Shown in pieces: positions 2,022-19,848 of a stretch of DNA of 27,228 bases. Position numbers and translations under genes: made by a program. The stretch covers positions 1 through 27,228 of the IMG/VR virus record IMGVR_UViG_3300042392_001262. One strand, written 5' to 3'. Positions within the stretch are counted from its first letter, which is position 1. Each line of letters opens with the position of its first letter. Origin of the DNA: a virus. A model generated the notes under the pieces. The model was not told the origin of the DNA and made no database searches. It saw only the letters and a program-made list of their open reading frames with translations.

Positions 2022-5000
2022 ATGAATATATCTCCTTCAAATATAGTTGAGACTGGATATGACCAAGGGTTTAAATTTGTAGACTCTAAGGGAGATTACT
2101 ATAAAGGATTTTATCATAAAGATGATAAAGATAGATATTGGACTGGTCAAACACATACAATAGCATCTATTAGAATATATGATACACGTAAACCAATTAA
2201 TACAGATCCAAATAGTTTAGTTAAAACTCTAGGCTCAAATAATGCTTATAATAAACATTATAATCAAAATCTAGCTACAGTTTTATTAAAATCAGATTTC
2301 ATTCAACCAACAGATACTGATTATAGTTTAGGATTTTTTCCTCGTTATATAGTTCAATTAAAGGCATCAACAATACCTGAAAATAACATATATGAGTTAA
2401 ATGCTATTAATTTTAACAAATATAGAAATGATGTTAGTTTTTTAAATTCATATAATGCTATTGTTATAGGATGGAAATTAACAGGTCCATTAAATGATGT
2501 ATATAAAAATAATGTTAGAATTCAACCTGGTCTTATAGATTCTAACTTACGCGCTATAGCAGATGCAAATAAAACTATTATAAATCTAAACAAATATTTA
2601 ACTGATCCCCTTCAATATACTTTAATTAATGAACGTTTAGAACTAGAAATTATAACCAATCCAGTAGTGTTGGTAGAAGTACCAATATATGAAGAACTTG
2701 ATCTATCAGTTTCATCATTACCTACTCCTAGTATAACAATAACTCCAACTTCAAGTCCCACACCTTCAATAAGTGTAAGTCCATCAATTGGATCTTCATT
2801 ATCACCTAGTATTAGTGTTTCACCATCTATTACTATATCTAGAACACCATCAAAAACACCAAGTATTAGTAAATCTGCTTCAATTAGTAGAACACCTAGT
2901 GTTACTTTAAGTAAATCAATTTCTAAATCTCCTAGTATAACACCTTCAGTTAGTATCAGTGCTACACCAAGTGTAACACTAAGTGAAACACCTTCAATTA
3001 GTATTAGTGCTACACCAAGTGTTACACCAAGTGAAACACCTTCAATAAGTGTTAGTGCTACACCAAGTGAAACACCTTCAATAAGTGTTAGTGTTACACC
3101 AAGTGAAACACCTTCAATTAGTATTAGTGCTACTCCAAGTATTAGTATAACACCTAGTATTACACCAACAATTAGTATAACACCATCAATAAATTCATCT
3201 ATAACAGCTAGTCCTAGTATAACACCTAGTATTAGTATTAGTGCCACTCCAAGTAGAACACCAAGTGAAACACCTTCAATAAGTGTATCTAAAACACCAA
3301 GTGTAACACCTTCAATTAGTATATCTGGAACACCAAGTGAAACACCTTCAATAAGTGTATCTAAAACACCAAGTATTTCTATTAGTACAACACCTAGTAT
3401 TTCTATTAGTCAATCAATATCTAACACTCCAAGTATAACTGTTAGTAATTCTATAAGCAATACACCGAGTATTACTGTTAGTAATTCTATAAGTAATACT
3501 CCAAGTATTACTATAAGCAGCTCAATAAGTAACACACCTTCTGTAACACCAAGTATTTCTATTAGTACAACACCTAGTATTTCTATTAGTCAATCAATAT
3601 CTAACACTCCAAGTATTTCTATAAGTGCTACACCAAGTGTAACACCTAGTATCACTATAAGTAACTCAATTAGTAATACACCAAGCATATCAATTAGTCC
3701 ATCTATTAGTAATACACCTTCTGTAACACCTAGTATAACAGTGAGTAACTCTATAAGTAATACACCAAGTATTTCTATAAGTGCTTCTATAAGTAATACT
3801 CCAAGTGTTACTCCAAGTATTTCAATTAGCGCTACACCAAGCATATCAATTAGTCCAACTCCAAGTATTTCAATTAGTAAATCAATATCCAATACTCCAA
3901 GTATTACTCCATCTATTAGTATTAGTGCAACACCAAGCGTTACACCTAGTATTACTATAAGTGCTTCTATTAGTAACACACCTAGTATAACTGTTAGTAA
4001 CTCTATAAGTAATACTCCATCTGTAACACCTAGTATCACTATAAGCAACTCAATATCAAATACACCAAGTATTAGTATTAGTGCAACACCAAGTGTAACA
4101 CCAAGTATTTCAATTAGTAAATCAATATCAAATACTCCATCTGTTACTCCATCTATTAGTATTAGTGCAACACCAAGCGTTACACCTAGTATCACTAAAT
4201 CAATATCAGTTAGTGTAACACCAAGTATATCAATAAGTAAATCTATTAGTAATACTCCATCTATAACACCTAGTATCACTATAAGCAACTCAATATCAAA
4301 TACACCAAGTATTAGTATTAGTCCATCATTTAGCAATACACCTTCTATAACACCAACTCGAACACCATCTGTAACTCCTTCACCAACAATATCTTATAGA
4401 TCATGGTTATTAGCTAATGGCAACGATACAGTTTTCCATGATGGGTTTGAAGTTTGTGGGTGGTATCCAACAATAAGCACAACTACTTATTACACTTTAC
4501 CTAATGTGACTAATCTATCAAACGGAACTACCATATACACTGATCCAGGATTAAGTATACCAATTAGTGAAAATAGTAATCCGTATGCTGTATATTTATC
4601 TGATGGTGTAAGCTATTGGAATATTGGAGACAATCCAACTGATGCTGGTAAGATATTTAATGAAACTTCTTGTACTCCACCTTCACCAACACCTAGTATC
4701 ACTAAATCAACATCAATTAGTGCTACACCAAGTATATCAATAAGTACTAGTATAAGTAAAACACCAAGTATATCAATAAGTAAATCTATTAGTAGAACAC
4801 CTAGTATTACACTAAGTAGAACACCTAGTGTTACACCAAGTATATCAATTAGTAAATCTATAAGCAATACACCAAGTATTAGTATAAGTAAATCTATTAG
4901 TAACACACCTAGTATTACACCAAGTAGATCAGTAGCGGCAGCTAGTGTCACACCAAGTATTTCAATAAGTAAATCAATTAGTAATACTCCAAGTACATCA

Positions 5001-5348
5001 CCTGCTGTAACAACATTTACAGTTAATATTTACGCTAAAACAGATGTTACTTTCCTAGGTGGAGCGGCATTATATACTTCAACTGATAATGTTAACTGGA
5101 CTAGAAGAGGATCAGCTATGGGTACAGGTTGTGTAGTTAAATATGGTCCTGTCAGTATAGCTAATGGTACAACAATATACTATCAAGTAGCTGATAACGC
5201 AGTTAATCCAGGTTCTGGTGGTGATACTTACTTCCATGGCGCAAGTACAAATACAACATGTCCAGCAGCAAGTACATCTTGTGTAGGATCATTTGTTGTA
5301 ACAGCGAATACTAATAGAGCACTTACAGCGCAAGAAATAGTTTGTTAA
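2022..5348 (+). CDS. Mucin-like Ser/Thr/Pro/Ile repeat virion protein, probable fibre or surface protein
   Basis: This 1108-residue protein has a non-repetitive N-terminal domain (about residues 1-230, rich in Tyr/Asn/Asp). A very long low-complexity region follows (about 234-790) made of variants of TPSISIS, TPSVTPS and SNTPSITVS. Next come a short globular insert (about 791-887, two Cys), a second repeat block (about 887-995) and a C-terminal beta-rich domain (about 996-1108) with several Cys. No signal peptide or TM segment is visible. The N-terminal domain may attach it to the virion. The upstream gene looks structural, so a tail fibre, whisker or capsid decoration is plausible. Dense Ser/Thr with Pro is the composition of mucin-type O-glycosylated stalks. 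The open frames on the opposite strand are artefacts of the repeats. The exact role is not shown by the sequence. Confidence 0.7.
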   Translation: MNISPSNIVETGYDQGFKFVDSKGDYYKGFYHKDDKDRYWTGQTHTIASIRIYDTRKPINTDPNSLVKTLGSNNAYNKHYNQNLATVLLKSDFIQPTDTDYSLGFFPRYIVQLKASTIPENNIYELNAINFNKYRNDVSFLNSYNAIVIGWKLTGPLNDVYKNNVRIQPGLIDSNLRAIADANKTIINLNKYLTDPLQYTLINERLELEIITNPVVLVEVPIYEELDLSVSSLPTPSITITPTSSPTPSISVSPSIGSSLSPSISVSPSITISRTPSKTPSISKSASISRTPSVTLSKSISKSPSITPSVSISATPSVTLSETPSISISATPSVTPSETPSISVSATPSETPSISVSVTPSETPSISISATPSISITPSITPTISITPSINSSITASPSITPSISISATPSRTPSETPSISVSKTPSVTPSISISGTPSETPSISVSKTPSISISTTPSISISQSISNTPSITVSNSISNTPSITVSNSISNTPSITISSSISNTPSVTPSISISTTPSISISQSISNTPSISISATPSVTPSITISNSISNTPSISISPSISNTPSVTPSITVSNSISNTPSISISASISNTPSVTPSISISATPSISISPTPSISISKSISNTPSITPSISISATPSVTPSITISASISNTPSITVSNSISNTPSVTPSITISNSISNTPSISISATPSVTPSISISKSISNTPSVTPSISISATPSVTPSITKSISVSVTPSISISKSISNTPSITPSITISNSISNTPSISISPSFSNTPSITPTRTPSVTPSPTISYRSWLLANGNDTVFHDGFEVCGWYPTISTTTYYTLPNVTNLSNGTTIYTDPGLSIPISENSNPYAVYLSDGVSYWNIGDNPTDAGKIFNETSCTPPSPTPSITKSTSISATPSISISTSISKTPSISISKSISRTPSITLSRTPSVTPSISISKSISNTPSISISKSISNTPSITPSRSVAAASVTPSISISKSISNTPSTSPAVTTFTVNIYAKTDVTFLGGAALYTSTDNVNWTRRGSAMGTGCVVKYGPVSIANGTTIYYQVADNAVNPGSGGDTYFHGASTNTTCPAASTSCVGSFVVTANTNRALTAQEIVC
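2722..4391 (+). repeat. Degenerate tandem repeat array encoding TPS-I/V-S/T units (block 1)
   Basis: About 1.67 kb of coding repeat built on short units such as 'acaccaagtattagtatt', translated TPSISI. Higher-order copies are visible. Bases 3365-3436 recur exactly at 3545-3616 (72 bp, offset 180). Bases 3904-3952 recur at 4144-4192 and 4024-4082 at 4264-4322 (both offset 240). Offsets that are multiples of 60 bp (20 codons) suggest growth by unequal recombination while keeping frame. Confidence 0.9.
4680..5008 (+). repeat. Degenerate tandem repeat array, block 2 of the same gene
   Basis: The same TPSISIS / SKSISNTPS units resume here after a 290-bp non-repetitive insert (4392-4679), then give way to the C-terminal domain. 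The unit type is shared with block 1, so the globular insert either interrupted one array or was carried with it. Confidence 0.85.
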
Positions 5349-5404: not shown

Positions 5405-6673
5405 ATGTTTTATATAGTCGAAACAAAAGAACAACTTGAACATTTAGGTAAACCAGAAAACAATACTTGTTTTATTAATGTCACTACATTAAATGATAAT
5501 AGTCATCCATCATTAACTAAACCATGTTTGGTGTATTATAATGATGGAGATAAAGGTTATATATTACCTATAGACCATAGTGAAGCATTTAAGCTAGATT
5601 GGGAAACAGTTAAAGAATTTATTTCTAGTATTGACACTGTCTATGTTTTAGATAAAAAATACCATTTATATTTTCTATCAGGTGATAATTTATTAGATAT
5701 TAATTTTACTAATTATGTTGATGAATCACAATTTGATACTAAAGTACATACTGATTTTAATAATCAAAAATATTATATAAATGATTTAAATTCACTTATA
5801 CCCATACCTAAACATTATGAAAAATGGGAAAATATATATACTCATTTAAAGGATAAATTATATTTTTCTAAATTTTACACTAATCATAAAAACGAATTTT
5901 TAAATACGTTTACTGAAGTATTTTACCAGATTGAAAAAAGTGGTATAGGTATTGATTCACGTAAGTTTAATAAACATTTTGAAACTACTTGGAAAGATAA
6001 TTCGATTTACGGGAATACAGTTTATACACAATACAATTTATATAATTTAACTACTCGTCCGTCAAACGCATTTAATGGCGTTAATTACGCCGCTTTACCT
6101 AAGGGTAGCGCACGTGAGTCATTTGAACCAAATAATTATGTTTTTGTTGAATTTGATTACAGTGCTTACCATCCACGTATAATAGCTAAAATGATTGGTT
6201 ATACATTTGAAGGTGAACCATATGATGAAGTACCTAAAGAAATTATGTTCCAAAACATATATGGTGGTATTAGAGATGAATATGCTTGGTTTCCATTTTT
6301 TGCTAAATTAAATGAATGGTTAGATAATAAATGGAAAGAATTCAAATCAACACATATTAATAGTTTAATATTACCTTCAGGTATTACTATACCACAAATA
6401 AAAATAGAAAATCCAAATAAAAATAAAATATTAAGTTACTTAATCCAATCATACGAAACATATTATAATACATTAACATTAGAACGTGTGTTAAAATTAC
6501 TAGATGGTAAAAAAACTAAAATAGTATTATACACATATGATTCTATATTGTTAGATGTAGCTAAAGAAGATATTAAAACATTATTACCCAAAATTAAACA
6601 AGAGCTAGAGGCTAATGGTTTCCCAACCCGTATGAGTGTTGGCGAGAATTATGGCGCTTTAGTAAAAAAATAA
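5405..6673 (+). CDS. Compact family A DNA polymerase-like protein (thumb/fingers reduced)
   Basis: Pol I-type palm motifs are recognisable: motif A FVEFDYSAYHPR (Asp251), motif B K278...F282...Y286 in KEIMFQNIYGG, a Gln348 matching the Gln of PIQGTAAD, and motif C LYTYDSILLDV (Asp379). The NYAALPKG...R..F segment before motif A matches LQNIPV....R..F. At 422 residues it is far shorter than Klenow fragment or T7 gp5. The step from 'IEKSGIGID' (176-184) to 'YTQYN' (207) leaves no room for a thumb, and motifs A and B are about 25 residues apart, so most of the fingers is missing. In Pol I numbering, steric-gate Glu710 is His256, Arg754 aligns with Asp274 and Glu883 is Ser380. The N-terminal ~160 residues may be a degenerate exonuclease-like domain without a DxE motif. 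Activity is uncertain; family membership is fairly secure. Confidence 0.75.
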   Translation: MFYIVETKEQLEHLGKPENNTCFINVTTLNDNSHPSLTKPCLVYYNDGDKGYILPIDHSEAFKLDWETVKEFISSIDTVYVLDKKYHLYFLSGDNLLDINFTNYVDESQFDTKVHTDFNNQKYYINDLNSLIPIPKHYEKWENIYTHLKDKLYFSKFYTNHKNEFLNTFTEVFYQIEKSGIGIDSRKFNKHFETTWKDNSIYGNTVYTQYNLYNLTTRPSNAFNGVNYAALPKGSARESFEPNNYVFVEFDYSAYHPRIIAKMIGYTFEGEPYDEVPKEIMFQNIYGGIRDEYAWFPFFAKLNEWLDNKWKEFKSTHINSLILPSGITIPQIKIENPNKNKILSYLIQSYETYYNTLTLERVLKLLDGKKTKIVLYTYDSILLDVAKEDIKTLLPKIKQELEANGFPTRMSVGENYGALVKK

Positions 6674-6680
6674 CATATTT

Positions 6681-7106
6681 ATGGAATATAATATAACCAT
6701 ACAAGAATTGGCCAATAAGTTATTCGGAACTTTCGCAAAGAAAGAAGACATAGATCAAACGTTAGACATTATAACTGGTCGCTACTCTATTCTATATAAT
6801 AAAATTTTTATTTTAGAATCAAAAGATAGTGACGAGGTTATATTTACTTATAATATTGATCCAGGTAATATGAGTACAACTTCTGTATTACCTAACACTA
6901 TATTAGTACATCGTAAAAAAGAATCGAATACTTTATATACTATTAATGCTTTAAACGCGTTAATTAAATCTTTAAATAATGGTTATGCAGATCCTAATTA
7001 CAGAATAGAATGGAACGACTATCGCAACACAATTCTACTCACACAAGGTCCAGACCAATTAAGAAAATTGGAAACAACAATTCACAAAATAATTAATATT
7101 AACTAA
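6681..7106 (+). CDS. Unknown phage protein in replication block
   Basis: I do not recognise this 141-residue protein. It is soluble-looking, has no Cys, and mixes alpha and beta segments: helix-like residues 7-30, strands around 38-60, a helix around the TINALNALIKSL stretch and a further strand at 'NTILLTQ'. It follows the polymerase-like gene by 7 nt and ends at a probable terminator hairpin, so it is likely the last gene of the polA transcript. The start ATG lies in an A/T leader without Shine-Dalgarno. A polymerase accessory role is only a guess from position. Confidence 0.7.
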   Translation: MEYNITIQELANKLFGTFAKKEDIDQTLDIITGRYSILYNKIFILESKDSDEVIFTYNIDPGNMSTTSVLPNTILVHRKKESNTLYTINALNALIKSLNNGYADPNYRIEWNDYRNTILLTQGPDQLRKLETTIHKIININ

Positions 7107-7199: not shown

Positions 7200-8006
7200 A
7201 TGGATTTAAATCAAATTAAGCAACGTATGCAATCGTTGCAAAACAAAAAAGGCGGCTTCATTAAAGAAGATCGTACTAAGACATTTTGGGCTCCACCTAT
7301 TGGCAAAGCAGTAATTCGTATTGTTCCATCCAAATTTAACAAAGCTAATCCGTTTAGAGAAGTGATGTTTCATTATGGTATTGGAAACAAAACAATGTTA
7401 TCGTTAACTAACTTTGGTGAAAAAGATCCAATTGTTGAATTTGCATCTCAGTTAAGAAAAACTAGTGACAAGGAAAATTGGTCATTAGCTAAGAAAATTA
7501 GTCCTAAAATGAGGATATTTGTTCCTGTTATTGTTAGAGGCGAAGAAGATAAAGGTGTTCGTCTATGGCAGTTTGGTAGGGAAATGTATCTTGAACTATT
7601 AGGTATTGCTGAAGATGAGGATATTGGAGATTACACTGATATTATGGATGGTAGAGATTTAACAATCGATACTGTTGGTCCTGAAGTTACAGGTACTAAA
7701 TTCAATAAATCATCAGTTCGTATTAAACCAAAAACATCAGGATTATCTGATGATAATGAAGCCATTAAAAAATGGATTAGTGAACAACCAGATGTACTTG
7801 AACTCTATAAGAAATATGAGTTTGATGAAATGAAAAACATGTTGATGGAATGGTTAGAACCAAGTGAAGAAACAACTACTGAAGAAGAAACAACTGACGA
7901 AGTTACAGACACACCAGTAGTAGAATCACCTAAGACTAATTATGCGTTAAATACTAAGAAAAAAGGATTTGACGAGAATGAATTTGATGAACTTTTTAAT
8001 AAATAA
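7200..8006 (+). CDS. gp32-like single-stranded DNA-binding protein
   Basis: This 268-residue protein has the layout of T4 gp32-like SSBs. It has a basic N-terminus (MDLNQIKQRMQ...KKG), a core with 'KTFWAPPIGKAVIRIVPSK' and 'HYGIGNKTMLSL', then a long acidic tail (about 218-268) ending DENEFDELFNK, the type of tail that recruits replication partners. It would coat ssDNA at the fork and during UvsX-driven recombination. No Cys is present, so the zinc site known in T4 gp32 is absent. It is followed 5 nt later by uvsX. It probably has its own promoter (7142-7173), since a terminator-like hairpin separates it from the upstream genes. Confidence 0.85.
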   Translation: MDLNQIKQRMQSLQNKKGGFIKEDRTKTFWAPPIGKAVIRIVPSKFNKANPFREVMFHYGIGNKTMLSLTNFGEKDPIVEFASQLRKTSDKENWSLAKKISPKMRIFVPVIVRGEEDKGVRLWQFGREMYLELLGIAEDEDIGDYTDIMDGRDLTIDTVGPEVTGTKFNKSSVRIKPKTSGLSDDNEAIKKWISEQPDVLELYKKYEFDEMKNMLMEWLEPSEETTTEEETTDEVTDTPVVESPKTNYALNTKKKGFDENEFDELFNK

Positions 8007-8011
8007 TTATT

Positions 8012-9115
8012 ATGGCTAAATCAGCTAAAAGTGTAAATACAAGTGTTTCTCAAGCAATTAAGGGTACATTTGATCTTGATAAATTCAAGAAAACAAAAAA
8101 GCTGGATCAGTCATCAAATTTTAAGACGCAGAAGTGGATCCCATTTTCACCAGCGATGCAGGACACTTTATCTATACCTGGTATACCAATGGGTCATATC
8201 ACAATAGCTAGAGGTGGTTCAGATACAGGTAAAACAACACTATTGATTGAGACAGCTGTCGCTGCTCAAAAGATGGGTATATTGCCTGTGTTTATCATCA
8301 CTGAGATGAAATGGGATTTCATTCATGCTCAAAAAATGGGATTTCAATGTAATGCAATTCCAGATGAAGCAACAGGCGAAGTAATGAATTATAGTGGTTT
8401 CTTTCTTTATGTTGATAGATCATCTTTAAATTCAATTGAAGATGTATCAGCGTTCATAGCTGATATTTTAGATGAACAAAAGAAAGGTAATTTACCTCAT
8501 GATTTATTGTTTCTATGGGATTCAGTAGGTTCTATACCATGTGATTTAAGTATCGAACAAGGTAAAAACAATCCGATGTGGAACGCGGGTGCCATGTCAA
8601 CACAGTTTGGTAACTTTATTAATCAAAAGTTTCCAATGTCTCGTAAAGATAACTCACAATTCACAAATACATTTTTTGTAATTAATAAAGTAGGAGTTCA
8701 ACCAGCACTTACACCTATGAGTCAACCAAGAATGACTAATAAAGGTGGTAATACAATGTATTGGGACGCTTCAATTGTAATTACATTTGGTAATGTGACT
8801 AATAGTGGTACATCTAAAATACATGCTCAACATAAAGGTAAAAAAGTTGAGTTTGCTAAACGTACAAAAGTATCTATAGATAAAATTCACGCTGATTGTG
8901 GAGTAGCTACATCATCAACTGTTATAGTAACACCACATGGTTTTATTGAAGATGATCCAGATGCTACAAAAGAATATAAAAAACAACACGCTCATGAGTG
9001 GTTTTCAGAATCTATAACTAATGTGGATGAATTAAAAATTACTGAAGATAATAGTGAATGGGAAGAAAGTATCAGTATTTCACCTACAATAGAAATAGAT
9101 AATGACGAAGAATAA
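8012..9115 (+). CDS. uvsX: UvsX/RecA-like recombinase
   Basis: A RecA-fold ATPase of 367 residues. The Walker A motif is GGSDTGKTT (68-76), a candidate catalytic Glu lies in the ITEMKWD region (about 98), and Walker B is LLFLWDSVGS (Asp170). 'NTFFVINKVG' and 'GGNTMYWDAS' match the core of UvsX-like proteins that bind ssDNA after the SSB and drive strand invasion for recombination-dependent replication and repair. The C-terminus is acidic. It sits directly after the SSB gene and overlaps or abuts the exonuclease gene, as in other phage replication operons. The length is close to T4 UvsX. Confidence 0.9.
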   Translation: MAKSAKSVNTSVSQAIKGTFDLDKFKKTKKLDQSSNFKTQKWIPFSPAMQDTLSIPGIPMGHITIARGGSDTGKTTLLIETAVAAQKMGILPVFIITEMKWDFIHAQKMGFQCNAIPDEATGEVMNYSGFFLYVDRSSLNSIEDVSAFIADILDEQKKGNLPHDLLFLWDSVGSIPCDLSIEQGKNNPMWNAGAMSTQFGNFINQKFPMSRKDNSQFTNTFFVINKVGVQPALTPMSQPRMTNKGGNTMYWDASIVITFGNVTNSGTSKIHAQHKGKKVEFAKRTKVSIDKIHADCGVATSSTVIVTPHGFIEDDPDATKEYKKQHAHEWFSESITNVDELKITEDNSEWEESISISPTIEIDNDEE

Positions 9116-10136
9116 AATGTTCAAGCAGATGCTTGATGGTATAACAAGTGCCAAAGACGAACCTTTACATTTAAATAGTAGAGTACTTCTTATAGACTCT
9201 ATGAATACATTTCTTAGGAGTTTCGCCATGATTAACCATATGAATCCTAGTGGAGCCCACATTGGTGGGCTCACTGGTTTTCTAAAATCAATTGGTTTTG
9301 CTATTAGGCATATTAAACCTACTAGAGTAATTCTAGTATTTGATGGTACAGGCAGTACTACTAATAAGAAGAATTTATTTCCTGAGTATAAAGCTCATAG
9401 AAAAATTCAACGTATAACTAATTGGGATGGATTTAATGATAAAGATGATGAGTCTGAATCAATTGAAAATCAATTAGTACGTTTAGTTCAATATCTAAGA
9501 TGTTTACCTGTTGGTTTACTATCTATTGATAAAGTAGAAGCGGATGATGTTATCGGATACATAACTAAAAGAGTTGAAGATGAAGTTTATATCATGTCAG
9601 CAGATCAAGATTTCTTACAATTAGTAACTCCTAAAGTAACAGTATATTCTCCTATTAAGAAAAAGTTTTATACACCTAAGTTAGTTAAAGAAGAATATGG
9701 TTTAGAAGCATATAATTATCTTAACCAAAAAATACTAATGGGTGACAATTCAGATAATATACCCGGTGTAAAAGGATTAGGACCTAAAAAATTATTTAAA
9801 TTATTTCCTGAATTAGAAAGTACCAACGCTGTTACTTTAGAGAGTATTTTAGAAAAATCTACAGAATTAGTTAATGAACATGGTTTGTATGGTAATATTG
9901 TTAATTTTAAAAAACAATTACTTATAAATCAAGAATTAATGGATCTATCAGATCCAATTATGCCTGAGAATAGTATTATTGAGATAGAAGAAGTAATACA
10001 TAATGAACCTAATAAAATAGATAAGTTACATTTTTTAAAGCTGTACAATGAAGATAAGCTTGGTAATTCAATACCTAATGTAGAAGTTTGGCTTTCAGAA
10101 ATATTTAGCTATCTTCAAGTATATAAAACAAAATAA
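9102..10136 (+). CDS. 5'-3' exonuclease / flap endonuclease (T4 RNase H-like)
   Basis: FEN-family nuclease of 344 residues. Metal-binding acidic residues appear in the usual order: Asp32 (LLIDSMN), Asp81 (LVFDGTG), the E-A-D-D group at 146-149, Asp168/Asp170 (SADQDFL) and Asp215/Asp218 (MGDNSDN). A helix-hairpin-helix IPGVKGLGPKKL (220-231) follows. The basic arch segment 'FPEYKAHRKIQR' is present. The role is removal of RNA primers and flaps on the lagging strand. The ATG at 9102 overlaps uvsX by 14 nt; an ATG at 9117, just after the uvsX stop, is an equally good start and would shorten the protein by 5 residues. Confidence 0.88.
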   Translation: MTKNKMFKQMLDGITSAKDEPLHLNSRVLLIDSMNTFLRSFAMINHMNPSGAHIGGLTGFLKSIGFAIRHIKPTRVILVFDGTGSTTNKKNLFPEYKAHRKIQRITNWDGFNDKDDESESIENQLVRLVQYLRCLPVGLLSIDKVEADDVIGYITKRVEDEVYIMSADQDFLQLVTPKVTVYSPIKKKFYTPKLVKEEYGLEAYNYLNQKILMGDNSDNIPGVKGLGPKKLFKLFPELESTNAVTLESILEKSTELVNEHGLYGNIVNFKKQLLINQELMDLSDPIMPENSIIEIEEVIHNEPNKIDKLHFLKLYNEDKLGNSIPNVEVWLSEIFSYLQVYKTK

Positions 10137-10139
10137 GTT

Positions 10140-11510
10140 ATGACAACATTTTCAAAATTAAACCAATATGGTTTGAATTTTCAAACTAAGGTGATTAGTT
10201 CACTTTTAAAAAATAAAAAATTTCTACTTAATATTCGAGATGTAGTAACACCAGATTACTTTGATAATCAAGCACATCAATGGTTAGTAGAAACTATCAC
10301 TAAATATTTTGATAAATGGCATGCAACTCCAACACTTGATATACTTCATATTGAAGTAAAAAAGATTGAGAATGAAGTATTAAAAACAACAGTAGTAGAA
10401 CAACTTAAAGAAGCTTATAAAACATCAAATGAAGATGCTGATTATGTTGAAGCTGAATTTAGTAATTTTTGTAAAAATCAACAATTAAAAAAAGCACTAT
10501 TAACATCAGTTGATTTACTACAATCAGGTATGTATGATGATATTAGAGCGCTTGTTGATAATGCTTTAAAAGCAGGAATGGATAAAAATTTAGGTCATGA
10601 GTATGAAAAGGATGTTGAAGATAGATATCGTGAAGAATATAGAAATCCAATTGCTACACCTTGGCCTGTTATAAATGGTTTATTACAAGGTGGTTTGGGT
10701 GGTGGTGATCTTGGATTAATATTTGGAGGTCCAGGAGGTGGAAAAAGTTGGTCATTAGTTGCCTTAGGAGCAGCGGCTATACAAGCTGGATTTAATGTTA
10801 ATCATTACACACTTGAATTAAGTGAAGCTTATGTTGGTAAAAGGTATGATGCTTGTTTCACTAATATACCAGTTAATACAATTCAAGAACATAGAAAAAA
10901 CGTTGAATCTGTTGTATCTAATTTATCCGGTAAGTTGGTTATTAAAGAATATCCGATGGGTAAAGCGACTATAAGTACTATTGAATCACATATACAGAAA
11001 TGTAGAGATTTAGATCAGTCACCTGATTTAATCCTTATAGATTATATTGATTTATTACGCGCTGATAGATCAAGTAAAGAACGTAAAGAAGAAATTGATG
11101 ATGTATATATGGCTACTAAAGGTTTAGCACGTGAATTAAATTTACCAATATGGAGTGTTAGTCAGGTTAATAGAGCTGGTGCTAACGATAATATTATTGA
11201 AGGTGATAAAGCAGCAGGTTCATACAATAAAATGATGATTACTGATTTTGCATTATCATTATCACGTCGACGTCAAGACAAAGCAGGTGGTACAGGTAGA
11301 TTCCATGTCATGAAAAATAGATATGGAATGGATGGTATAACTTATTCAGCTGTCATAGACACTTCTACAGGCCATATACATATTGATAATAATGAACTAG
11401 ATGAAGAAACACTAGAACGTGAAAAACCAACTAAATTAAATGATAATTTTGACTCAGTAGATCGTGATATTTTAAAGAAAAAGTTTTTTGAACTTAATAA
11501 CAATAGTTAA
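10140..11510 (+). CDS. DnaB/gp41-like replicative DNA helicase
   Basis: 456 residues with a helical N-terminal domain (about 1-150, DnaB-N-like, with 'VVTPDYFDNQAHQWL') and a RecA-type hexameric helicase domain. Walker A is GGPGGGKSW (196-204), Walker B is LILIDYIDLLRA (Asp301), and a sensor-like motif WSVSQVNRAG follows. 'ATPWPVINGLLQGGLGGGDLG' matches the family's entry to the P-loop. It would unwind the fork ahead of the polymerase. The gene begins 3 nt after the exonuclease gene. No primase is seen in the window, so it is encoded elsewhere or supplied by the host. Confidence 0.9.
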   Translation: MTTFSKLNQYGLNFQTKVISSLLKNKKFLLNIRDVVTPDYFDNQAHQWLVETITKYFDKWHATPTLDILHIEVKKIENEVLKTTVVEQLKEAYKTSNEDADYVEAEFSNFCKNQQLKKALLTSVDLLQSGMYDDIRALVDNALKAGMDKNLGHEYEKDVEDRYREEYRNPIATPWPVINGLLQGGLGGGDLGLIFGGPGGGKSWSLVALGAAAIQAGFNVNHYTLELSEAYVGKRYDACFTNIPVNTIQEHRKNVESVVSNLSGKLVIKEYPMGKATISTIESHIQKCRDLDQSPDLILIDYIDLLRADRSSKERKEEIDDVYMATKGLARELNLPIWSVSQVNRAGANDNIIEGDKAAGSYNKMMITDFALSLSRRRQDKAGGTGRFHVMKNRYGMDGITYSAVIDTSTGHIHIDNNELDEETLEREKPTKLNDNFDSVDRDILKKKFFELNNNS

Positions 11511-12339: not shown

Positions 12340-14190
12340 ATGGATGTAACACAGAGTATCCTTAGCGAAATAACTACTTATATGAAGTATGCTAAGTATA
12401 GACCAGAATTAAACAGAAGAGAAACATGGGAAGAGTTAGTAACAAGAAACAAAGAAATGCATCAAGTAAAGTTCCCCCAATTAAAAGATGAAATTGAAAA
12501 TGCTTATAAATTAGTATATGATAAAAAAGTTTTACCATCTATGCGCTCATTACAGTTCGCGGGTAAGCCCATTGAGCTTAATAATGCTCGTATATTTAAT
12601 TGTTCTTTTTTGCCTCTCGATGATTGGCGTGCTTTTAGCGAAATAATGTTCTTACTATTAAGTGGATGTGGAGTAGGATATAGTGTACAAACACATCATA
12701 TAGATAATTTGCCTGAAATTAAAGTACCAACTAAACATAAAAGATATTTAGTAGGTGATAGTATTGAAGGATGGGCTGATGCTGTTAGAATGCTTTGTAA
12801 AGCATATTTTCAAGGAGCTCCACTTCCAACATTTGACTTTAGAGATATTAGAGCTAAAGGCGCTCAGTTAATTACTGTAGGTGGTAAAGCACCTGGCCCT
12901 GAACCATTAAAAGAATGTTTATTTAATTTACAAAAGGTATTTGAACGTAAGAAAAATGGTGATAAACTAACATCAATAGATGCTCATGATATGGCTTGCC
13001 ATATTGCAGATGCAGTACTATCAGGAGGTATTAGAAGAGCAGCATTAATTTCATTATTTAATTTAGATGATGAAGATATGTTAACTTGTAAGTTTGGAAA
13101 TTGGTGGGAACAAAATCCACAACGTGGAAGAGCAAATAACTCAGCTGTAGTTATGCGTCATAAAATTACTGAAAGTGAATTTTTCAAATTATGGAAAAAA
13201 ATTGAATTAAGTAACTCAGGTGAACCAGGTATTTATTTTAGTAATGATAAAGAGTGGGGAACAAATCCATGTTGTGAGATTGCTCTTAAAGCTTTCCAAT
13301 TCTGTAATCTATGTGAAGTAAATGTTTCAAATATTGAATCACAAGAAGATTTAAACGAAAGAGTACGTGTAGGTTCTTTTATTGGAACTTTACAAGCAGC
13401 ATATACTGATTTCCATTACTTAAGAGAAGTATGGCAAAAAACAACTGAAAAAGAAGCTTTATTAGGTGTTGGGATGACAGGTATTGGTTCTGGAGTTATC
13501 TTGAATTATGATTTAAAGAAAGCAGCTGATTTAGCTAAAGAAGAAAATACTCGTGTTGCTGATATTATAAAAGTAAACAAAGCATCTCGTGTGACTACAG
13601 TTAAACCATCAGGTACTAGTTCATTAGTATTAGGAACTGCATCTGGAATTCATGCTTGGCATAATGATTACTATATTCGTAGAATCAGAGTAGGTAAAAA
13701 TGAAGCAATTTACTCTTACCTTGCAATTAACCATCCTGAACTAGTTGAAGATGATTTCTTTAAACCAACAATACAAGCTGTAATTTCAGTACCTCAACAA
13801 GCACCAGAAGGTTCTATTTTAAGAACTGAAAATGTACTTGATATGCTTGAGCGTACTAAGAAATTTAATGTACAGTGGGTTAAAAAAGGTCATCGCAAAG
13901 GAGCAAATACAAACAACGTATCAGCGACTGTATCAATTCAAGAAGGTGAGTGGGAACAAGTAGGCAAATGGATGTGGGAAAATAAAGAAACATTTAATGG
14001 ACTATCAGTATTACCTTATTTTGGAGGTACTTATACTCAAGCACCATTTGAAGATATTACTAAAGAACAATTTGATGAAATGGCTAAATATTTACATAAT
14101 ATTGATTTAAGTAAGATTGTTGAATTTAGCGATGATACAGCGTTAATGGACCAAGCCGCGTGTGCTGGAGGCGCTTGTGAGATAGTATAA
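12340..14190 (+). CDS. nrdJ: Class II (adenosylcobalamin-dependent) ribonucleotide reductase, monomeric type
   Basis: 616 residues resembling the RTPR type of class II RNR, which makes dNTPs from NTPs using B12. The first active-site Cys is in ARIFNCSF (Cys88). 'SGCGVGYSVQ' (108-117) and 'GGIRRAALISLF' are conserved core pieces. NPCCEI (Cys311) and FCNL (Cys322) are 11 apart, as are Cys408 and Cys419 of Lactobacillus RTPR. The C-terminal CAGGAC pair (608, 613) matches the thiol relay at the RTPR tail. The protein is about 120 residues shorter than RTPR. Much of the deficit (about 66) lies between the first and second active cysteines, perhaps reduced allosteric structure. No small subunit is needed. 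Activity would depend on host cobalamin. Confidence 0.88.
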   Translation: MDVTQSILSEITTYMKYAKYRPELNRRETWEELVTRNKEMHQVKFPQLKDEIENAYKLVYDKKVLPSMRSLQFAGKPIELNNARIFNCSFLPLDDWRAFSEIMFLLLSGCGVGYSVQTHHIDNLPEIKVPTKHKRYLVGDSIEGWADAVRMLCKAYFQGAPLPTFDFRDIRAKGAQLITVGGKAPGPEPLKECLFNLQKVFERKKNGDKLTSIDAHDMACHIADAVLSGGIRRAALISLFNLDDEDMLTCKFGNWWEQNPQRGRANNSAVVMRHKITESEFFKLWKKIELSNSGEPGIYFSNDKEWGTNPCCEIALKAFQFCNLCEVNVSNIESQEDLNERVRVGSFIGTLQAAYTDFHYLREVWQKTTEKEALLGVGMTGIGSGVILNYDLKKAADLAKEENTRVADIIKVNKASRVTTVKPSGTSSLVLGTASGIHAWHNDYYIRRIRVGKNEAIYSYLAINHPELVEDDFFKPTIQAVISVPQQAPEGSILRTENVLDMLERTKKFNVQWVKKGHRKGANTNNVSATVSIQEGEWEQVGKWMWENKETFNGLSVLPYFGGTYTQAPFEDITKEQFDEMAKYLHNIDLSKIVEFSDDTALMDQAACAGGACEIV

Positions 14191-14953: not shown

Positions 14954-15418
14954 ATGAGTAAATTTCAATCAACAAAATTATTTGACGGATTTAGTTGTGT
15001 GTTTCGTCAATGGAAAGCAGAAGGTACACACTGTCGTTTTCTCCACGGTTATGGAGTATCATTTAGAGTATGGTTTGAAGGTGAATTAGATGAAAAAAAT
15101 TGGGTTTGGGACTTTGGAGGTATGAAACGTGCTAAAGGTACTATTGATAATATGAATCCTAAAGAATGGATGGACTACATGTTTGATCATACTACAATTA
15201 TTGCAGAGGATGATCCTGGAATAGGTGGATTTAAAACAATGGATCAACTAGGTATAATTCAGCTTAGAGTCATTCCAGCTGTTGGAGCAGAACAATTTGC
15301 TAAATTTATATTTGAGAAATTAAATACATTTGTTCAAGAGGAAACAAGCGGTAGAGTTAAAATAGCGAGAGTAGAATTCATGGAACACGCTAAAAATACT
15401 GCTATATATGAAGGCTAA
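14954..15418 (+). CDS. queD: QueD-like 6-carboxytetrahydropterin synthase
   Basis: 154 residues of the T-fold PTPS/QueD family, which converts dihydroneopterin triphosphate to 6-carboxytetrahydropterin in 7-deazaguanine synthesis. Seen: THCRFLHGYG (catalytic-type Cys27, then His31), WDFGGMK (52-58, the 'DF..LK' element), FDHT (Asp78-His79, the catalytic pair) and a C-terminal Glu (RVEFMEH). The classic zinc ligands are HGH plus an upstream 'FSAAH' His. Here the motif is HGY (Tyr33) and the upstream position reads FSCVF, so two of three ligands are replaced. I believe similar forms exist in other phages, so this may be a family variant rather than decay. It overlaps the next gene by 11 nt. Confidence 0.8.
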   Translation: MSKFQSTKLFDGFSCVFRQWKAEGTHCRFLHGYGVSFRVWFEGELDEKNWVWDFGGMKRAKGTIDNMNPKEWMDYMFDHTTIIAEDDPGIGGFKTMDQLGIIQLRVIPAVGAEQFAKFIFEKLNTFVQEETSGRVKIARVEFMEHAKNTAIYEG

Positions 15419-15680
15419 ATTAAGTAAACAACTCCAAAAAGAATTAATCAATAAATATGAATTAGAAAATCCACCTCCATATACTGAAGGACATTGGGAT
15501 GATGCTATGTTGGAGAATGATAGTTTTTATGATATAGATATACTTCATAAACATAATAAACCAATTTTAGAAAAAATTAAATATTGGCAAGATGAATTTA
15601 AACCATCAGGCAACATGGGAAAATGGTGGGCATCAGTTCAAATAGAAAAATTAAGGAAACAACTAAAACATTATAAATGA
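15408..15680 (+). CDS. Small unknown protein between queD and dpdA
   Basis: 90 residues, overlapping queD by 11 nt and dpdA by an ATGA, so it is tightly coupled to both. The sequence is polar and rich in Lys/Trp/His (NPPPYTEGHWDD, GKWWASVQIEKLRKQLKHYK) with a probable C-terminal helix. No known motif. Its place inside the pathway operon makes an accessory role in base modification possible but unproven. Confidence 0.6.
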   Translation: MKAKLSKQLQKELINKYELENPPPYTEGHWDDAMLENDSFYDIDILHKHNKPILEKIKYWQDEFKPSGNMGKWWASVQIEKLRKQLKHYK

Positions 15681-16462
15681 AAATATCACACGAACTACCT
15701 CTTAGTTTAATGGATTATGCTTACAAATGGAATGATTATGATTATTGTCTTCCTCACTTAATAGATGAATCAATGCAGTATAGATTATTCTTTCAAAAAT
15801 CAAGAATAGATAAAAGATTCATTATAATGGATAATGGATTATTTGAAGGAGTAGATCATACAATAGAAGATTTACTTGAAAAAATTAGTCTTATTCATCC
15901 TAATGTATTCATTATTCCTGACGCTTGGAATGATTCAACCTCAACTATTAGAAGTGCAAAACATTGGATGATAAATTATGGTGATAAACTAAAGGAAATT
16001 GATGTTAATTTAATGGCTGTATGTCAAGGCAAAACAATAGGTGAATTAATAACTACATATCAAACATTAGTTGATTTAGGCTACAAACATATAGCATTCA
16101 ATCATTCTAGCATTGCCTATCAAGAACTAGGATATGATAATTCTTTAAAGAATCAAATGTATGGCAGAATGGAATTTATTAGAAAATTAGTTGAAAATAA
16201 AACTATTAGAGAAACATTCTACCATCATTTACTTGGTTGTTCTTTACCTCAAGAATTTATGGCTTATAAAGATTGGAAATTTATCAAATCAGTAGATACA
16301 TCTAATCCTATCCTAGTAGGAGCAGAAGGTAAACATTACACAGATAGTGGTATAAATTGGAAACCAAAAGAAAAATTAGCTTATTATTTTGAAAAAGATT
16401 TATCTGACCGAATTGATGATATTAGCTTTAATGTAAATAAATTTAAAGAATATGTTAAATAA
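15677..16462 (+). CDS. dpdA: DpdA-like DNA 7-deazaguanine transglycosylase
   Basis: 261 residues with the sequence landmarks of a TGT-type TIM barrel in their usual order. They are FIIMDNGLFEG (Asp52, first catalytic Asp), VFIIPDAW (Asp82), AVCQGKT (115-120, the base-recognition Gln-Gly), HHLLGCSLP (183-191, the 'GVG.P' strand) and SVDTSNPILVG (Asp207, candidate nucleophile, with the D-T/S-S-N-P form I associate with phage DpdA). The Cys3-His zinc site of tRNA-guanine transglycosylases is absent: only three Cys occur, far apart. The expected reaction is exchange of G in DNA for preQ0 or a derivative, protecting phage DNA from host nucleases. Close linkage to folE, queD, queE and queC strongly supports this over a tRNA enzyme. 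The subfamily cannot be fixed by eye. Confidence 0.85.
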   Translation: MKISHELPLSLMDYAYKWNDYDYCLPHLIDESMQYRLFFQKSRIDKRFIIMDNGLFEGVDHTIEDLLEKISLIHPNVFIIPDAWNDSTSTIRSAKHWMINYGDKLKEIDVNLMAVCQGKTIGELITTYQTLVDLGYKHIAFNHSSIAYQELGYDNSLKNQMYGRMEFIRKLVENKTIRETFYHHLLGCSLPQEFMAYKDWKFIKSVDTSNPILVGAEGKHYTDSGINWKPKEKLAYYFEKDLSDRIDDISFNVNKFKEYVK

Positions 16463-16751
16463 TACACAATCACTTTATGATTATTTAGGTAGAGCAGCTG
16501 GTCCAACATTAGGTTTAGAAGTAGCTAAATATGCTAGACAACAAAATTCACCAGTACAAACTAGAGAAATATCAAATCCTAAATATTCAGGTCTTGTAAA
16601 TTTATATACTGAAAATTTATTAATGGCTTTTTTTAATAATCCAAATTATAGAGATATTATCAACACTGATAAAATCCAATACGAATTAAAATCAAAAAAA
16701 TCGCTTGAACGGAAGATAAGCGAATCACAAGATAATACTCTTCCATTTTAA
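16452..16751 (+). CDS. Small unknown protein downstream of dpdA
   Basis: 99 residues, start overlapping dpdA by 11 nt. The N-terminal 'SLYDYLGRAAGPTLGLEVAKYARQ' and 'REISNPKYSGLVNLYTENLL' stretches are well ordered and look conserved; I have an impression of similar small phage proteins but no name or function. The C-terminus is Lys/Ser-rich (KSKKSLERKISESQ). It is followed 12 nt later by queC. A dpdA partner role is a guess from coupling. Confidence 0.6.
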   Translation: MLNNTQSLYDYLGRAAGPTLGLEVAKYARQQNSPVQTREISNPKYSGLVNLYTENLLMAFFNNPNYRDIINTDKIQYELKSKKSLERKISESQDNTLPF

Positions 16752-16763
16752 TTTAAAATAAAA

Positions 16764-17567
16764 ATGAAAAAATCAGTTTTAAGTCTTTCAGGTGGAATGG
16801 ATTCTAGTTCATTATTACTTCATCTATTAGCTAAAGGTTATCAAGTAACAGCTTTAGGTTTTGATTATGGTCAAAAACATAAAGTAGAATTAGACCGTGC
16901 TAAATCATTAGTAGAATATTTAAAATCTAAAGGACAAAAAGTAACACATCAGATTATTAAGTTGGATGGTTTATCTCAATTACTTAATTCAGCTTTAGTC
17001 ACAGGTGGTAAAGATGTACCTGAAGGACACTACGAACAAGACAATATGAAAGATACTGTTGTTCCTAATCGTAATAAGATATTTGCTTCACTTATTCAAG
17101 CGGTAGCATTATCAGAAGCGACTAAAGATAAAAAACAAGAATGTATTATAGCAATGGGTATTCACGCTGGTGATCACGCTATTTATCCTGATTGTAGACA
17201 AGAGTTTAGAGATGCTGATTTTGAAGCATTTAAAGTTGGTAATTGGGATTCAGAATTAGTATCACATTATACTCCATATTTGAATACTGATAAATTTGGT
17301 ATTTTAGAAGATGGTTTAAAATGTTGTGAAATACTAGATTTAGAATTTGATAAAGTTTATAGGCGTACAAATACTTCTTATAAACCAATATGGTTTGAAG
17401 GAGAATGGTATTCAGATTATAAATCAGCAGCATCTGTAGAGCGTATTGAAGCATTTATTAAACTAGGTCGTCCTGATCCTGTAGCTTATGCTGATGAAAC
17501 AGGACCTGTACGTTGGGAAGTAGCTAAAACAGCAGTAGAAAAAGTATTAAACGAATATAATAAATAA
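16764..17567 (+). CDS. queC: QueC-like 7-cyano-7-deazaguanine (preQ0) synthase
   Basis: 267 residues of the PP-loop ATP pyrophosphatase family. Seen: SGGMDSSS P-loop (9-16), GFDYGQKHK (32-40), VVPNRN (99-104), GIHAGDHAIYPDCRQEF (132-148) and the C-terminal VERIEAF (225-231). QueC converts carboxydeazaguanine, via the amide, to preQ0 with two ATP. The usual C-terminal zinc site (C...CxxCxxC before V/R-x-R-x-E-x-F) is gone. The aligned positions are Ser205, Asp218, Ser221 and Ser224. The rest of the enzyme is intact, so it is probably active without zinc, or stops at the amide. A rho-independent terminator follows. Confidence 0.85.
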   Translation: MKKSVLSLSGGMDSSSLLLHLLAKGYQVTALGFDYGQKHKVELDRAKSLVEYLKSKGQKVTHQIIKLDGLSQLLNSALVTGGKDVPEGHYEQDNMKDTVVPNRNKIFASLIQAVALSEATKDKKQECIIAMGIHAGDHAIYPDCRQEFRDADFEAFKVGNWDSELVSHYTPYLNTDKFGILEDGLKCCEILDLEFDKVYRRTNTSYKPIWFEGEWYSDYKSAASVERIEAFIKLGRPDPVAYADETGPVRWEVAKTAVEKVLNEYNK

Positions 17568-17695
17568 TGCATGAATTTCAACATATATTAGGATTATGTG
17601 CTGACTCAAAAACACATTTAAACATATTGGGGTTTCTTTTGGAACCCCAACTTTTACAACATATATTTAATTATCTAAAAACATGGAGGATTTAA
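17567..17695 (+). CDS. Possible 42-aa ORF spanning the queC terminator
   Basis: ATG 17567 overlaps the queC stop (TAATG) and runs 42 codons (MHEFQHILGLCADSKTHLNI...) to TAA 17693-17695. The TAATG overlap is typical of coupled genes here. However, the frame reads through the strong hairpin at 17627-17650, which encodes LGFLLEPQ, and ends 3 nt before the next gene. It may be a real small gene or an accidental frame. Confidence 0.3.
   Translation: MHEFQHILGLCADSKTHLNILGFLLEPQLLQHIFNYLKTWRI
17627..17655 (+). terminator. Rho-independent terminator after queC
   Basis: TTGGGGTTTC (17627-17636) pairs with GGAACCCCAA (17641-17650) over 10 bp with one G-U pair and a TTTT loop, followed by CTTTT. It is the strongest hairpin seen in the window and lies 60 nt after the queC stop, closing the queD-dpdA-queC group. 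Confidence 0.75.
17638..17669 (+). promoter_or_regulatory. Bacteroidetes-type promoter overlapping the terminator loop
   Basis: TTTG (17638-17641) is formed by the terminator's loop and the first base of its right arm. A 20-nt spacer and TATATTTA (17662-17669) follow, the same boxes and spacing as at 5357 and 7142. It would drive the 76-aa gene, queE and the genes after it. Confidence 0.6.
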
Positions 17696-17698
17696 CCA

Positions 17699-17929
17699 AT
17701 GAAGTGTCTTAAAAATGTCAAAACAGGAACAATTATTCGCTTAGATGACTTTAAAGCGGACAACATGGTAGGAAGGGAGTGGATTTTTGTTTCCAAAACA
17801 GAATGGAAATCATTAACTCGTAAACCAGAACCAGTAGTTGAATCTACAAAAACTATCTCAGACAGTATTATTAGAGGTCTTGAAGGAGAAACAATTTCAG
17901 AAAAACAATTAAAACGTAAGAAAAAATGA
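17699..17929 (+). CDS. Small unknown basic protein upstream of queE
   Basis: 76 residues. The first half 'MKCLKNVKTGTIIRLDDFKADNMVGREWIFVSKTEWKSL' looks like a small SH3-like beta fold of a kind I have seen in phage proteins beginning 'KxVKTG'. The second half is a charged linker ending KQLKRKKK. A GGAGG lies 9 nt before the ATG (17685-17689), a good Shine-Dalgarno, unlike other starts here. That GGAGG is itself within a nine-codon frame from ATG 17683. It overlaps queE by ATGA, so the two are translated together. No function can be assigned. Confidence 0.65.
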   Translation: MKCLKNVKTGTIIRLDDFKADNMVGREWIFVSKTEWKSLTRKPEPVVESTKTISDSIIRGLEGETISEKQLKRKKK

Positions 17930-18816
17930 GTAAAATAGATCCTAAAAAACTATTAATAAGCTCTGATTTCTACTCTGTCCAAGGTGAGGGTATTTCATCA
18001 GGAGTACCTTCATACTTTGTTCGTTTAGGTATTTGTAATCTGACTTGTGGTATGAGTAGAGCATTTACAAATAATCTTTTAAAAGAAGCATCATTAGAAG
18101 ATGGTGAAATTTTTAAAGGTGATTTAGAGTTAGAAGGTAAAGCGTCTTGGACTTGTGATTCAACAAGTCAATGGTTATGGAGAGGCGAAGATAAAGAATT
18201 TGATTATTTAATTAAACGTTGGAAAGATGAAGGTGTTTATGATGATATATTAAATGGTATTATTCATATCATTTGGACAGGTGGAGAACCTACAATTAAA
18301 GGACATCAAGAAGCTATTGTTAATTTTCATAAGTATTGGCTATTACAAGTAGATCCATCAACAACACTTCCTGGTAAAGAATATGCTTGGAGATTACCGG
18401 AGAATGATTTAATTGTAAGGCATAACTATAATGAAATAGAAACAAACGGTACAATAGTAATTGAAGATGATTTATTTAAAATTATAGATCAAATCAACTG
18501 TTCACCTAAGTTATCTAATTCAGGTATGGATGTTAAACAGCGTATTAATGAAGCTGCTATTAAACGTGTAATGGAACATAAAAATTATCAATTTAAATTT
18601 GTTATATCTAATGAAGAAGATGTTCAAGAATTATTTCGTGACTTTGTCATACCATTTAGCATACCTCTTACCAACTTGGTTTGTATGCCAGGATTAGATG
18701 ATGTATCTAATTTTGAAGAACGTACTCAATTTTGTTTAGAAATGGCTAAAAAATATAGATTTAGAGGTTTGACTCGTCTTCATATTGCAGCCTGGAATAA
18801 AACACTTAATGTATAA
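17926..18816 (+). CDS. queE: QueE-like 7-carboxy-7-deazaguanine synthase (radical SAM)
   Basis: 296 residues. 'FYSVQGEGISSGVPSYFVRLGICNLTC' is the QueE signature with cluster cysteines Cys37 and Cys41. The third, usually two residues later (CxxxCxxC followed by D-T/S), is instead at Cys77 in SWTCDST, so the cluster motif is CxxxC-x35-C with an inserted segment (42-76). 'HIIWTGGEPTIKGHQ' (about 113-127) is the SAM-binding GGEP motif. The enzyme makes CDG from carboxytetrahydropterin using a 4Fe-4S cluster, SAM and Mg. I recall similar inserted forms in marine phage QueE proteins. It is translationally coupled to the preceding small gene. Confidence 0.85.
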   Translation: MSKIDPKKLLISSDFYSVQGEGISSGVPSYFVRLGICNLTCGMSRAFTNNLLKEASLEDGEIFKGDLELEGKASWTCDSTSQWLWRGEDKEFDYLIKRWKDEGVYDDILNGIIHIIWTGGEPTIKGHQEAIVNFHKYWLLQVDPSTTLPGKEYAWRLPENDLIVRHNYNEIETNGTIVIEDDLFKIIDQINCSPKLSNSGMDVKQRINEAAIKRVMEHKNYQFKFVISNEEDVQELFRDFVIPFSIPLTNLVCMPGLDDVSNFEERTQFCLEMAKKYRFRGLTRLHIAAWNKTLNV

Positions 18817-18934
18817 AATAATTAATTTAATATTAGGTTTAGTAGCTACATTTAGTATTCCTTTAGGTTTACTATGGTTAGCTACTACCTATTCAAACAA
18901 AAAAGATAAAAATGAATATAACAATAACTCCTGA
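18809..18934 (+). CDS. Small single-TM protein
   Basis: A 41-residue frame (ATG 18809, TGA 18932-18934) overlapping the queE end by 8 nt and the next gene by 23 nt. It encodes a hydrophobic segment at about residues 4-27 (IINLILGLVATFSIPLGLLW), then a polar tail (NKKDKNEYNNNS). The overlap pattern and the clean TM-plus-tail shape argue for a real gene. Function unknown. Confidence 0.5.
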   Translation: MYKIINLILGLVATFSIPLGLLWLATTYSNKKDKNEYNNNS

Positions 18935-19130
18935 TAATGTCTATACAGGTATAGCTTTATTACTTATGAGTTTACAGATTTACCAATATAGACAATTAGA
19001 AAAATCTAGAAAAGAAATACAACGACTGTGGGATCAAATAGCTACATTTAACACTATGGTCGCTTTAAAACTTTTGGAAACTCAACAAGATATTAATAAA
19101 TTAAATGAAAATAAGAATGATGGAAAATAA
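18912..19130 (+). CDS. Small membrane-anchored coiled-coil protein
   Basis: 72 residues: short N-terminus, a hydrophobic segment (about 11-26, VYTGIALLLMSLQIYQY), then a charged helix likely to form a coiled coil (QLEKSRKEIQRLWDQI ... LLETQQDINKLNE). Together with the preceding 41-aa frame it makes a pair of tiny membrane proteins between queE and folE. Spanin/holin-like shapes are similar, but nothing here proves lysis function. Confidence 0.6.
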   Translation: MNITITPDNVYTGIALLLMSLQIYQYRQLEKSRKEIQRLWDQIATFNTMVALKLLETQQDINKLNENKNDGK

Positions 19131-19848
19131 AAGAAGAACAGTAGCAGATATTGAAGCTCTAGAAACTGCTAAACCTGGTTTTGCAAATGGTATTTCATTA
19201 CAATTAAAATCACGTATTGAAGATGGTTTCCATCGTTCACTTACAGATAATGAAAAATGGCTTATTGTAGGTGAAGCTGAAACAGCATATGGTAAATTTT
19301 TAGATGCGTTAGGTGTTGATTGGAGAAATGATCCAAATAGTATGGAAACACCTCGTCGTGTAGCTAAAGCATATGTATTTGATTTATGGAAAGGTAGATA
19401 TGAATTACCAACTGACATTACATCATTTCCATCTGATGGATATGAAGGTATTGTATTAGAAAGAGATATTCCAATTGTTAGTATGTGTTCTCATCACCAC
19501 CAAGCAATTTTAGGTAAAGCACACGTAGCTTATATACCAGGTAAAGAAGGTAAAGTAGTTGGTTTAAGTAAATTAAATCGTATTGTAGAACATTTTGCTC
19601 GTAGAGGTGCTATCCAAGAACAACTTACAGTTGCTATTCATAACGCTGTAAATACTGTTTGTGAAGATAACGCAGGTGTGATGGTAATAGTACATGCTGG
19701 ACACCAATGTGTTAGTTGTAGAGGGGTTAAACATCAAGGAGCATCAATGGTTACAAGTGAAGTAAGTGGAGTATTTGCTGATCATAGTCGTACTGCTAAA
19801 GCTGAAGTATTAGAAATGATTAAATTAAATCTTCAATCTTATTGTTGA
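19105..19848 (+). CDS. folE: GTP cyclohydrolase I
   Basis: 247 residues (243 if translation starts at ATG 19117, which I find as likely because 19105 lies 26 nt inside the upstream gene). FolE type I landmarks: ETPRRVAKAY (81-90), zinc ligands Cys128 and His131 in MCSHHHQAI, GLSKLNRIVEHFARR (153-167), and GHQCVSCRGV with Cys202 as third zinc ligand and the catalytic-type His200. The product is dihydroneopterin triphosphate from GTP, the first step of the preQ0 pathway whose other enzymes are QueD, QueE and QueC here. The zinc site is fully conserved, in contrast to this phage's QueD and QueC. The N-terminal ~40 residues extend beyond the core. Confidence 0.92.
   Translation: MKIRMMENKRRTVADIEALETAKPGFANGISLQLKSRIEDGFHRSLTDNEKWLIVGEAETAYGKFLDALGVDWRNDPNSMETPRRVAKAYVFDLWKGRYELPTDITSFPSDGYEGIVLERDIPIVSMCSHHHQAILGKAHVAYIPGKEGKVVGLSKLNRIVEHFARRGAIQEQLTVAIHNAVNTVCEDNAGVMVIVHAGHQCVSCRGVKHQGASMVTSEVSGVFADHSRTAKAEVLEMIKLNLQSYC

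Follow-up and report, generated by a model that had tools for sequence, protein, structure and literature searches.

The window analyzed here, the whole 27,228-nucleotide stretch of viral DNA (IMG/VR record IMGVR_UViG_3300042392_001262), carries on its plus strand an open reading frame of 422 residues (5405-6673) with motifs A, B and C of family A DNA polymerases, which we annotated as a thumbless polymerase of the divPolA1 type. On the same strand it is followed by orf141 (6681-7106), a 141-residue immediate neighbor of unmatched fold and a candidate partner; a single-strand DNA-binding protein (SSB; 7200-8006; PHROG 1192, E 1.2e-18); a UvsX/RecA-like recombinase (8012-9115); a 5′-3′ exonuclease of the Pol I N-terminal/FEN type (9102-10136; PF02739, E 9.8e-32; PF01367, E 2e-10); and a DnaB-like replicative helicase (10140-11510; PHROG 19, E 1.6e-73). 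The upstream neighbor (2022-5348) is a protein of 1108 residues with long Ser/Thr/Pro-rich tandem repeats of the SISxTPS type, and owing to these repeats its antisense strand shows long mechanical open reading frames.

Further along the window lie a ribonucleotide reductase carrying the insertion domain of B12-dependent class II enzymes (12340-14190; PF21995), a 7-deazaguanine pathway (14954-19848), and a tandem pair of similar-looking glycosyltransferase-like genes (22415-24923). The pathway consists of QueD (14954-15418), a DpdA-like protein with 33% identity to the annotated DpdA of Flavobacterium phage immuto (15677-16462), QueC (16764-17567), a QueE-like protein with no Pfam match (17926-18816), and FolE (19105-19848).

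Fold and family membership

The Pfam model DNA_pol_A matched the window protein weakly (E 8e-4, 18.8 bits, below the curated cut-off of 34.3 bits), and a PDB sequence search with the single protein gave no match; a profile built from 14 homologs was needed to reach a PDB match by sequence. This profile aligned to the Klenow fragment with an E value of 2.6e-7, pairing D251/D705 and H256/E710 in motif A, K278/K758, F282/F762 and Y286/Y766 in motif B, and Q348/Q849, Y378/H881, D379/D882 and S380/E883 in the remainder. A Foldseek search with the AlphaFold2 model (pLDDT 94.9, pTM 0.92) retrieved Klenow, Taq, apicoplast polymerase and polymerase theta from the PDB (E ~1e-14, with TMq reaching 0.69); in BFVD the model matched full-size phage PolA. 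In the predicted structure, the family A fold extends along the entire protein with a gap at the position of the thumb. The profile alignment and the fold search bear out the sequence-only reading, which had placed all three motifs within 422 residues. Of the canonical family A features (DNA_pol_A), the fold and motifs A, B and C are present and the thumb subdomain is absent.

In 2024, Yutin et al. (Virol J 21:200; PMC11348598) described divPolA1 in 14 phages. They report a truncated thumb, an inactivated exonuclease with all three exo Asp lost in the relatives, retained palm residues, a regular polymerase (family A, B or C) encoded in addition by the same phages, and replication genes downstream. 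The window protein is almost certainly a member. It fits each divPolA1 feature examined, namely homology, thumb, exonuclease, palm, regular polymerase and downstream genes; it aligns with the immuto-type protein with an E value of 5e-59 (33% identity, 98% query coverage), and the two join in one alignment and tree. The published divPolA1 phages have genomes of 155-190 kb; the window covers a fragment of 27 kb, contigs identical to it reach 72 kb at most, and the genome of one homolog measures 484 kb.

The gene is intact and under constraint

Two IMG/VR scans, one genome scan and cultured phages together yielded 148 usable homologs. The protein is abundant in metagenomic viruses (hundreds of contigs), and the short architecture is common to the homologs: all 55 nonredundant representatives measure 417-443 residues. 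The active-site residues remain invariant across the 148 sequences down to 29% identity, and the median dN/dS is 0.20 in the near clade and 0.18 in its palm/fingers region. Contigs with DNA identical to the window across 8.8-14.7 kb contain the same frame. The equal short length of the homologs and these independent contigs rule out the frameshift or assembly error that had been considered as a trivial cause of the missing parts. We also considered that a neighboring gene supplies the missing parts; neither the sequence nor the predicted fold of orf141, which comes next, could be matched to any solved structure. A recent duplication of the phages' own full-size PolA was unsupported (profile comparison probability 1%).

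Thumb, fingers and exonuclease-like domain

Residues 1-164 (5405-5896) form a degenerate 3′-5′ exonuclease-like domain. Aligned by eye, the exo I region reads CFINVTT, compared with FDTET in Klenow; the exo I site corresponds to N25 and T27 and the exo II Asp to His87, none of them acidic in the window protein. By the same visual equivalence, only 4 of 148 homologs have Asp at position 25. The thumb of Pol I, of about 100 residues, is replaced by a loop at residues 186-206 (5960-6022), in which the AlphaFold2 model forms no thumb helices; no complete thumb is built from unrecognized residues elsewhere in the model. This loop, estimated at about 20 residues from the sequence, is 21 residues long in 133 of 148 homologs.

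The spacing between D251 and K278 is 27 residues, compared with 53 in E. coli Pol I. The short gap between motifs A and B, noted from the sequence alone, is a property of the window subclade; in the other homologs the spacing is 37-47. The homologs fall into classes of 27-28 (the window clade, 55 sequences), 37-40 (33 sequences) and 45-47 (60 sequences), the first of which forms a single tree branch with support 100/98. Thumb loss is family-wide, and very short fingers are limited to the window subclade. The simplest reading of the tree, which is rooted only at its midpoint, is that the thumb was lost first and that a single lineage later shortened its fingers further. The sequence-only reading had aligned Asp274 with Arg754 of Pol I. 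The column does hold Asp in the window clade (55/55), which has no Arg754, but the pairing hinges on gap placement: in longer-fingered members the same column holds a His734-like His, invariant in the 45-47 class (60/60). The window clade has neither His734 nor Arg754, and its Asn845 equivalent is Ser.

Active-site residues and the steric gate

Motif A (EFDYSAYH; 6149-6172) contains the catalytic Asp251 and, at the Glu710 steric-gate position, His256. Motif B, the O helix (KEIMFQNIYG; 6236-6265), contains Lys278, Phe282 and Tyr286 and is preceded by the 27-residue fingers; motif C (YTYDS; 6530-6544) contains the catalytic Asp379, followed by Ser or Ala in place of Glu883. R218, D251, H256, K278, F282, Y286, Q348, E351 and N355 are invariant in 148/148 sequences, and D379 in all 147 that extend that far. 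The catalytic-type residues listed from the sequence alone (Asp251, Asp379, Lys278, Phe282, Tyr286 and Gln348) are retained throughout the family, as is the His256 substitution. That His is the oddest feature of the family. In Bacillus Pol I, Glu658, the Glu710 equivalent, excludes ribose, and removal of its carboxylate sharply reduces rNTP discrimination (PMC7200780). With an invariant His at this site, divPolA1 may have relaxed sugar selection.

The contrast of YDS in motif C with HDE of Pol I was correctly aligned (Y378, D379, S380), but the Ser is not unusual. The full-size PolA of Kayvirus reads VHDS and keeps Glu at its steric gate; the motif C Ser is therefore less odd than first thought, and YDS is weakened as a mark of odd chemistry.

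A fixed gene order and a second polymerase

The order divPolA1-orf141-ssb-uvsX-5′ nuclease-dnaB, on a single strand, was found in all 46 loci that extend 7.5 kb or more downstream, including Flavobacterium, Microcystis and jumbo-phage records. With orf141 as the query, divPolA1 lay directly ahead in all 53 loci that reach far enough upstream, and among 50,697 phage records both genes occur in the same six, which represent three independent phages. The orf141 model is fairly confident (pLDDT 87.7), and its PDB fold search returned nothing significant (best E 0.24). A match to a PHROG ssDNA-binding family (E 0.0012) appeared in only 1 of 47 members and was taken as chance. The orf141 protein contains a conserved HRKK..NTLYTIN segment. 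A separate DnaG-type primase is present in five long records.

The search for a second polymerase was positive. One contig, whose DNA matches the window exactly for 14.7 kb, encodes a complete family B polymerase; the two window-identical contigs both carry an 862-residue PolB with intact exonuclease and polymerase motifs, and in the longer contig PolB lies about 27 kb downstream of divPolA1, just beyond the window. Among related records of at least 70 kb, 10 of 11 have a second PolA or PolB, a few of them in separate pieces. Flavobacterium phage immuto encodes the short protein and a 777-residue PolA, Microcystis phage Mel-JY01 the short protein and a full PolB adjoining clamp-loader genes. 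Family C occurs as the second polymerase only in the 484 kb genome, where it too is a piece. In the 111 kb record G013, which is perhaps incomplete, searches for families A, B and C gave no second polymerase. In the related phages L192, L193, L194 and LR756508 (W03), PolB consists of an N-terminal open reading frame of about 560-580 residues and a separate later piece, perhaps reflecting split genes or inserted elements. Because this phage also encodes a full-size PolB, divPolA1 is an accessory enzyme and not its only polymerase.

Discussion

The divPolA1 family and its accessory status are already published (PMC11348598). Neither the steric gate nor orf141 nor a subclade with short fingers comes up in the text of that paper, which refers to fingers only as general background. 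New here are the universal His at the Glu710 steric gate; the monophyletic short-fingers subclade, including the window, that has lost the His734-like residue; and the conserved orf141 that invariably follows divPolA1, ahead of ssb, uvsX, the 5′ nuclease gene and dnaB.

Overall, we propose that divPolA1 is probably an active, distributive and non-proofreading accessory polymerase encoded beside a full-size replicative polymerase, here of family B. The sequence-only reading had left open whether this was a real minimal polymerase or a protein recruited to another role; the confident fold, the invariant catalytic residues, the dN/dS of about 0.2 and the lack of a hidden thumb favor the former. 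Because the palm active site and O helix are conserved, nucleotidyl transfer is likely. Because the thumb and a working proofreading domain are missing, synthesis would be short and unproofread, and the fixed neighbors suggest that it takes place at single-strand gaps, at junctions or on recombination intermediates. The enzyme would add a few nucleotides distributively, whether at a short gap, an Okazaki junction or a recombination intermediate, and the missing grip on DNA could be supplied by orf141, SSB, UvsX, the 5′ nuclease and the helicase. A gap-filling or repair role is quite possible, if short of probable. Together with the separately encoded 5′ nuclease, divPolA1 would resemble a Pol I split into two proteins; this link is suggestive only, because a FEN-type nuclease also occurs in T4-like phages without PolA. 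Counting against an active enzyme, the thumb is what Pol I depends on to hold DNA. In the window clade, the loss of the His734-like residue and the change of the Asn845 equivalent to Ser could also mean weak or altered catalysis.

divPolA1 might instead be a non-catalytic scaffold or regulator of polymerase descent, for which the missing thumb and exonuclease activity and the two altered triphosphate-contacting residues of the window clade would speak. We consider this very unlikely, since both metal-binding Asp and the motif B Lys, Phe and Tyr are invariant even in very divergent members. At the other extreme, divPolA1 might carry out the main, processive synthesis in one part of replication, such as the lagging strand; orf141 or SSB would then stand in for a clamp or thumb, and the auxiliary enzyme would be the regular polymerase. 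The invariant replication neighborhood belongs to divPolA1 and not to the regular polymerases, which belong variously to families A, B or C and whose functionality Yutin et al. describe as less obvious (PMC11348598). However, divPolA1 has neither thumb nor proofreading, the full-size polymerases keep intact exonuclease and polymerase motifs, and the Mel-JY01 PolB adjoins clamp-loader genes, all of which make a main replicase unlikely. Where the regular polymerase is far from the replication genes, the share of divPolA1 in replication could nevertheless be larger than assumed.

The gate residue raises the question of an RNA-using polymerase that serves primer synthesis, ribonucleotide patches or transcription. 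The invariant replacement of the gate by His (148/148), the resemblance of motif C to the Asp-Ser of single-subunit RNA polymerases, and the far weaker discrimination against rNTP by Bacillus Pol I without the Glu658 carboxylate (PMC7200780) all point this way. However, the bulky His may itself act as a gate, the Kayvirus PolA combines Asp-Ser in motif C with a retained gate Glu, and the long records carry a separate DnaG-type primase, so that an RNA-using enzyme seems quite unlikely. Close to negligible is the idea, raised earlier from the sequence, that divPolA1 is specialized for incorporating modified (7-deazaguanine) nucleotides. The FolE, QueD, QueC, QueE-like and DpdA-like genes of the window would fit such a role. 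However, DpdA-type enzymes exchange guanine in finished DNA, and by this chemistry and the annotation of the DpdA-like gene the route would need no special polymerase; moreover, divPolA1 is kept with its own replication cluster in 46/46 loci. Finally, we regard as highly improbable an obligate two-part polymerase in which orf141 is a thumb in trans and the His gate admits ribonucleotides; if true, it would be a new way of building a family A polymerase.

An accessory, distributive divPolA1 remains our preferred reading. A thumbless and mostly fingerless polymerase with a catalytic core tests the minimum of Pol I that templated synthesis requires. Discrimination against rNTP is directly testable given the invariant His at the sugar gate, and Flavobacterium phage immuto, which is in culture, offers a system for testing the roles of divPolA1, always beside the same five genes, and of the uncharacterized orf141.

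Comparison with known polymerases

The window protein is an end-to-end homolog of known divPolA1 such as gp001 of Flavobacterium phage vB_FspM_immuto. Like the published divPolA1, it is truncated at the thumb, exonuclease-dead, conserved in the palm and accessory, with replication genes downstream; unlike other divPolA1, its subclade has fingers 10-20 residues shorter still and lacks the His734-like residue. According to the same paper (PMC11348598), divPolA2 of barbaviruses is likewise an accessory divergent PolA with an unrecognizable thumb, but its description sets it apart by a variable gene neighborhood and an unrelated N-terminal domain. The PolA of Kayvirus, a Staphylococcus phage, shows weak similarity to one divergent divPolA1 member (E ~1e-5) but differs in being full-size and in having Glu at the steric gate. 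With E. coli Klenow, the window protein shares the order of exonuclease-like domain, palm and fingers and the same catalytic Asp, Lys, Phe, Tyr and Gln. In contrast to Klenow, it has no thumb, short fingers, no proofreading residues and 422 rather than about 605 residues; Glu710 is replaced with His, His881 with Tyr and Glu883 with Ser (or Ala in homologs).
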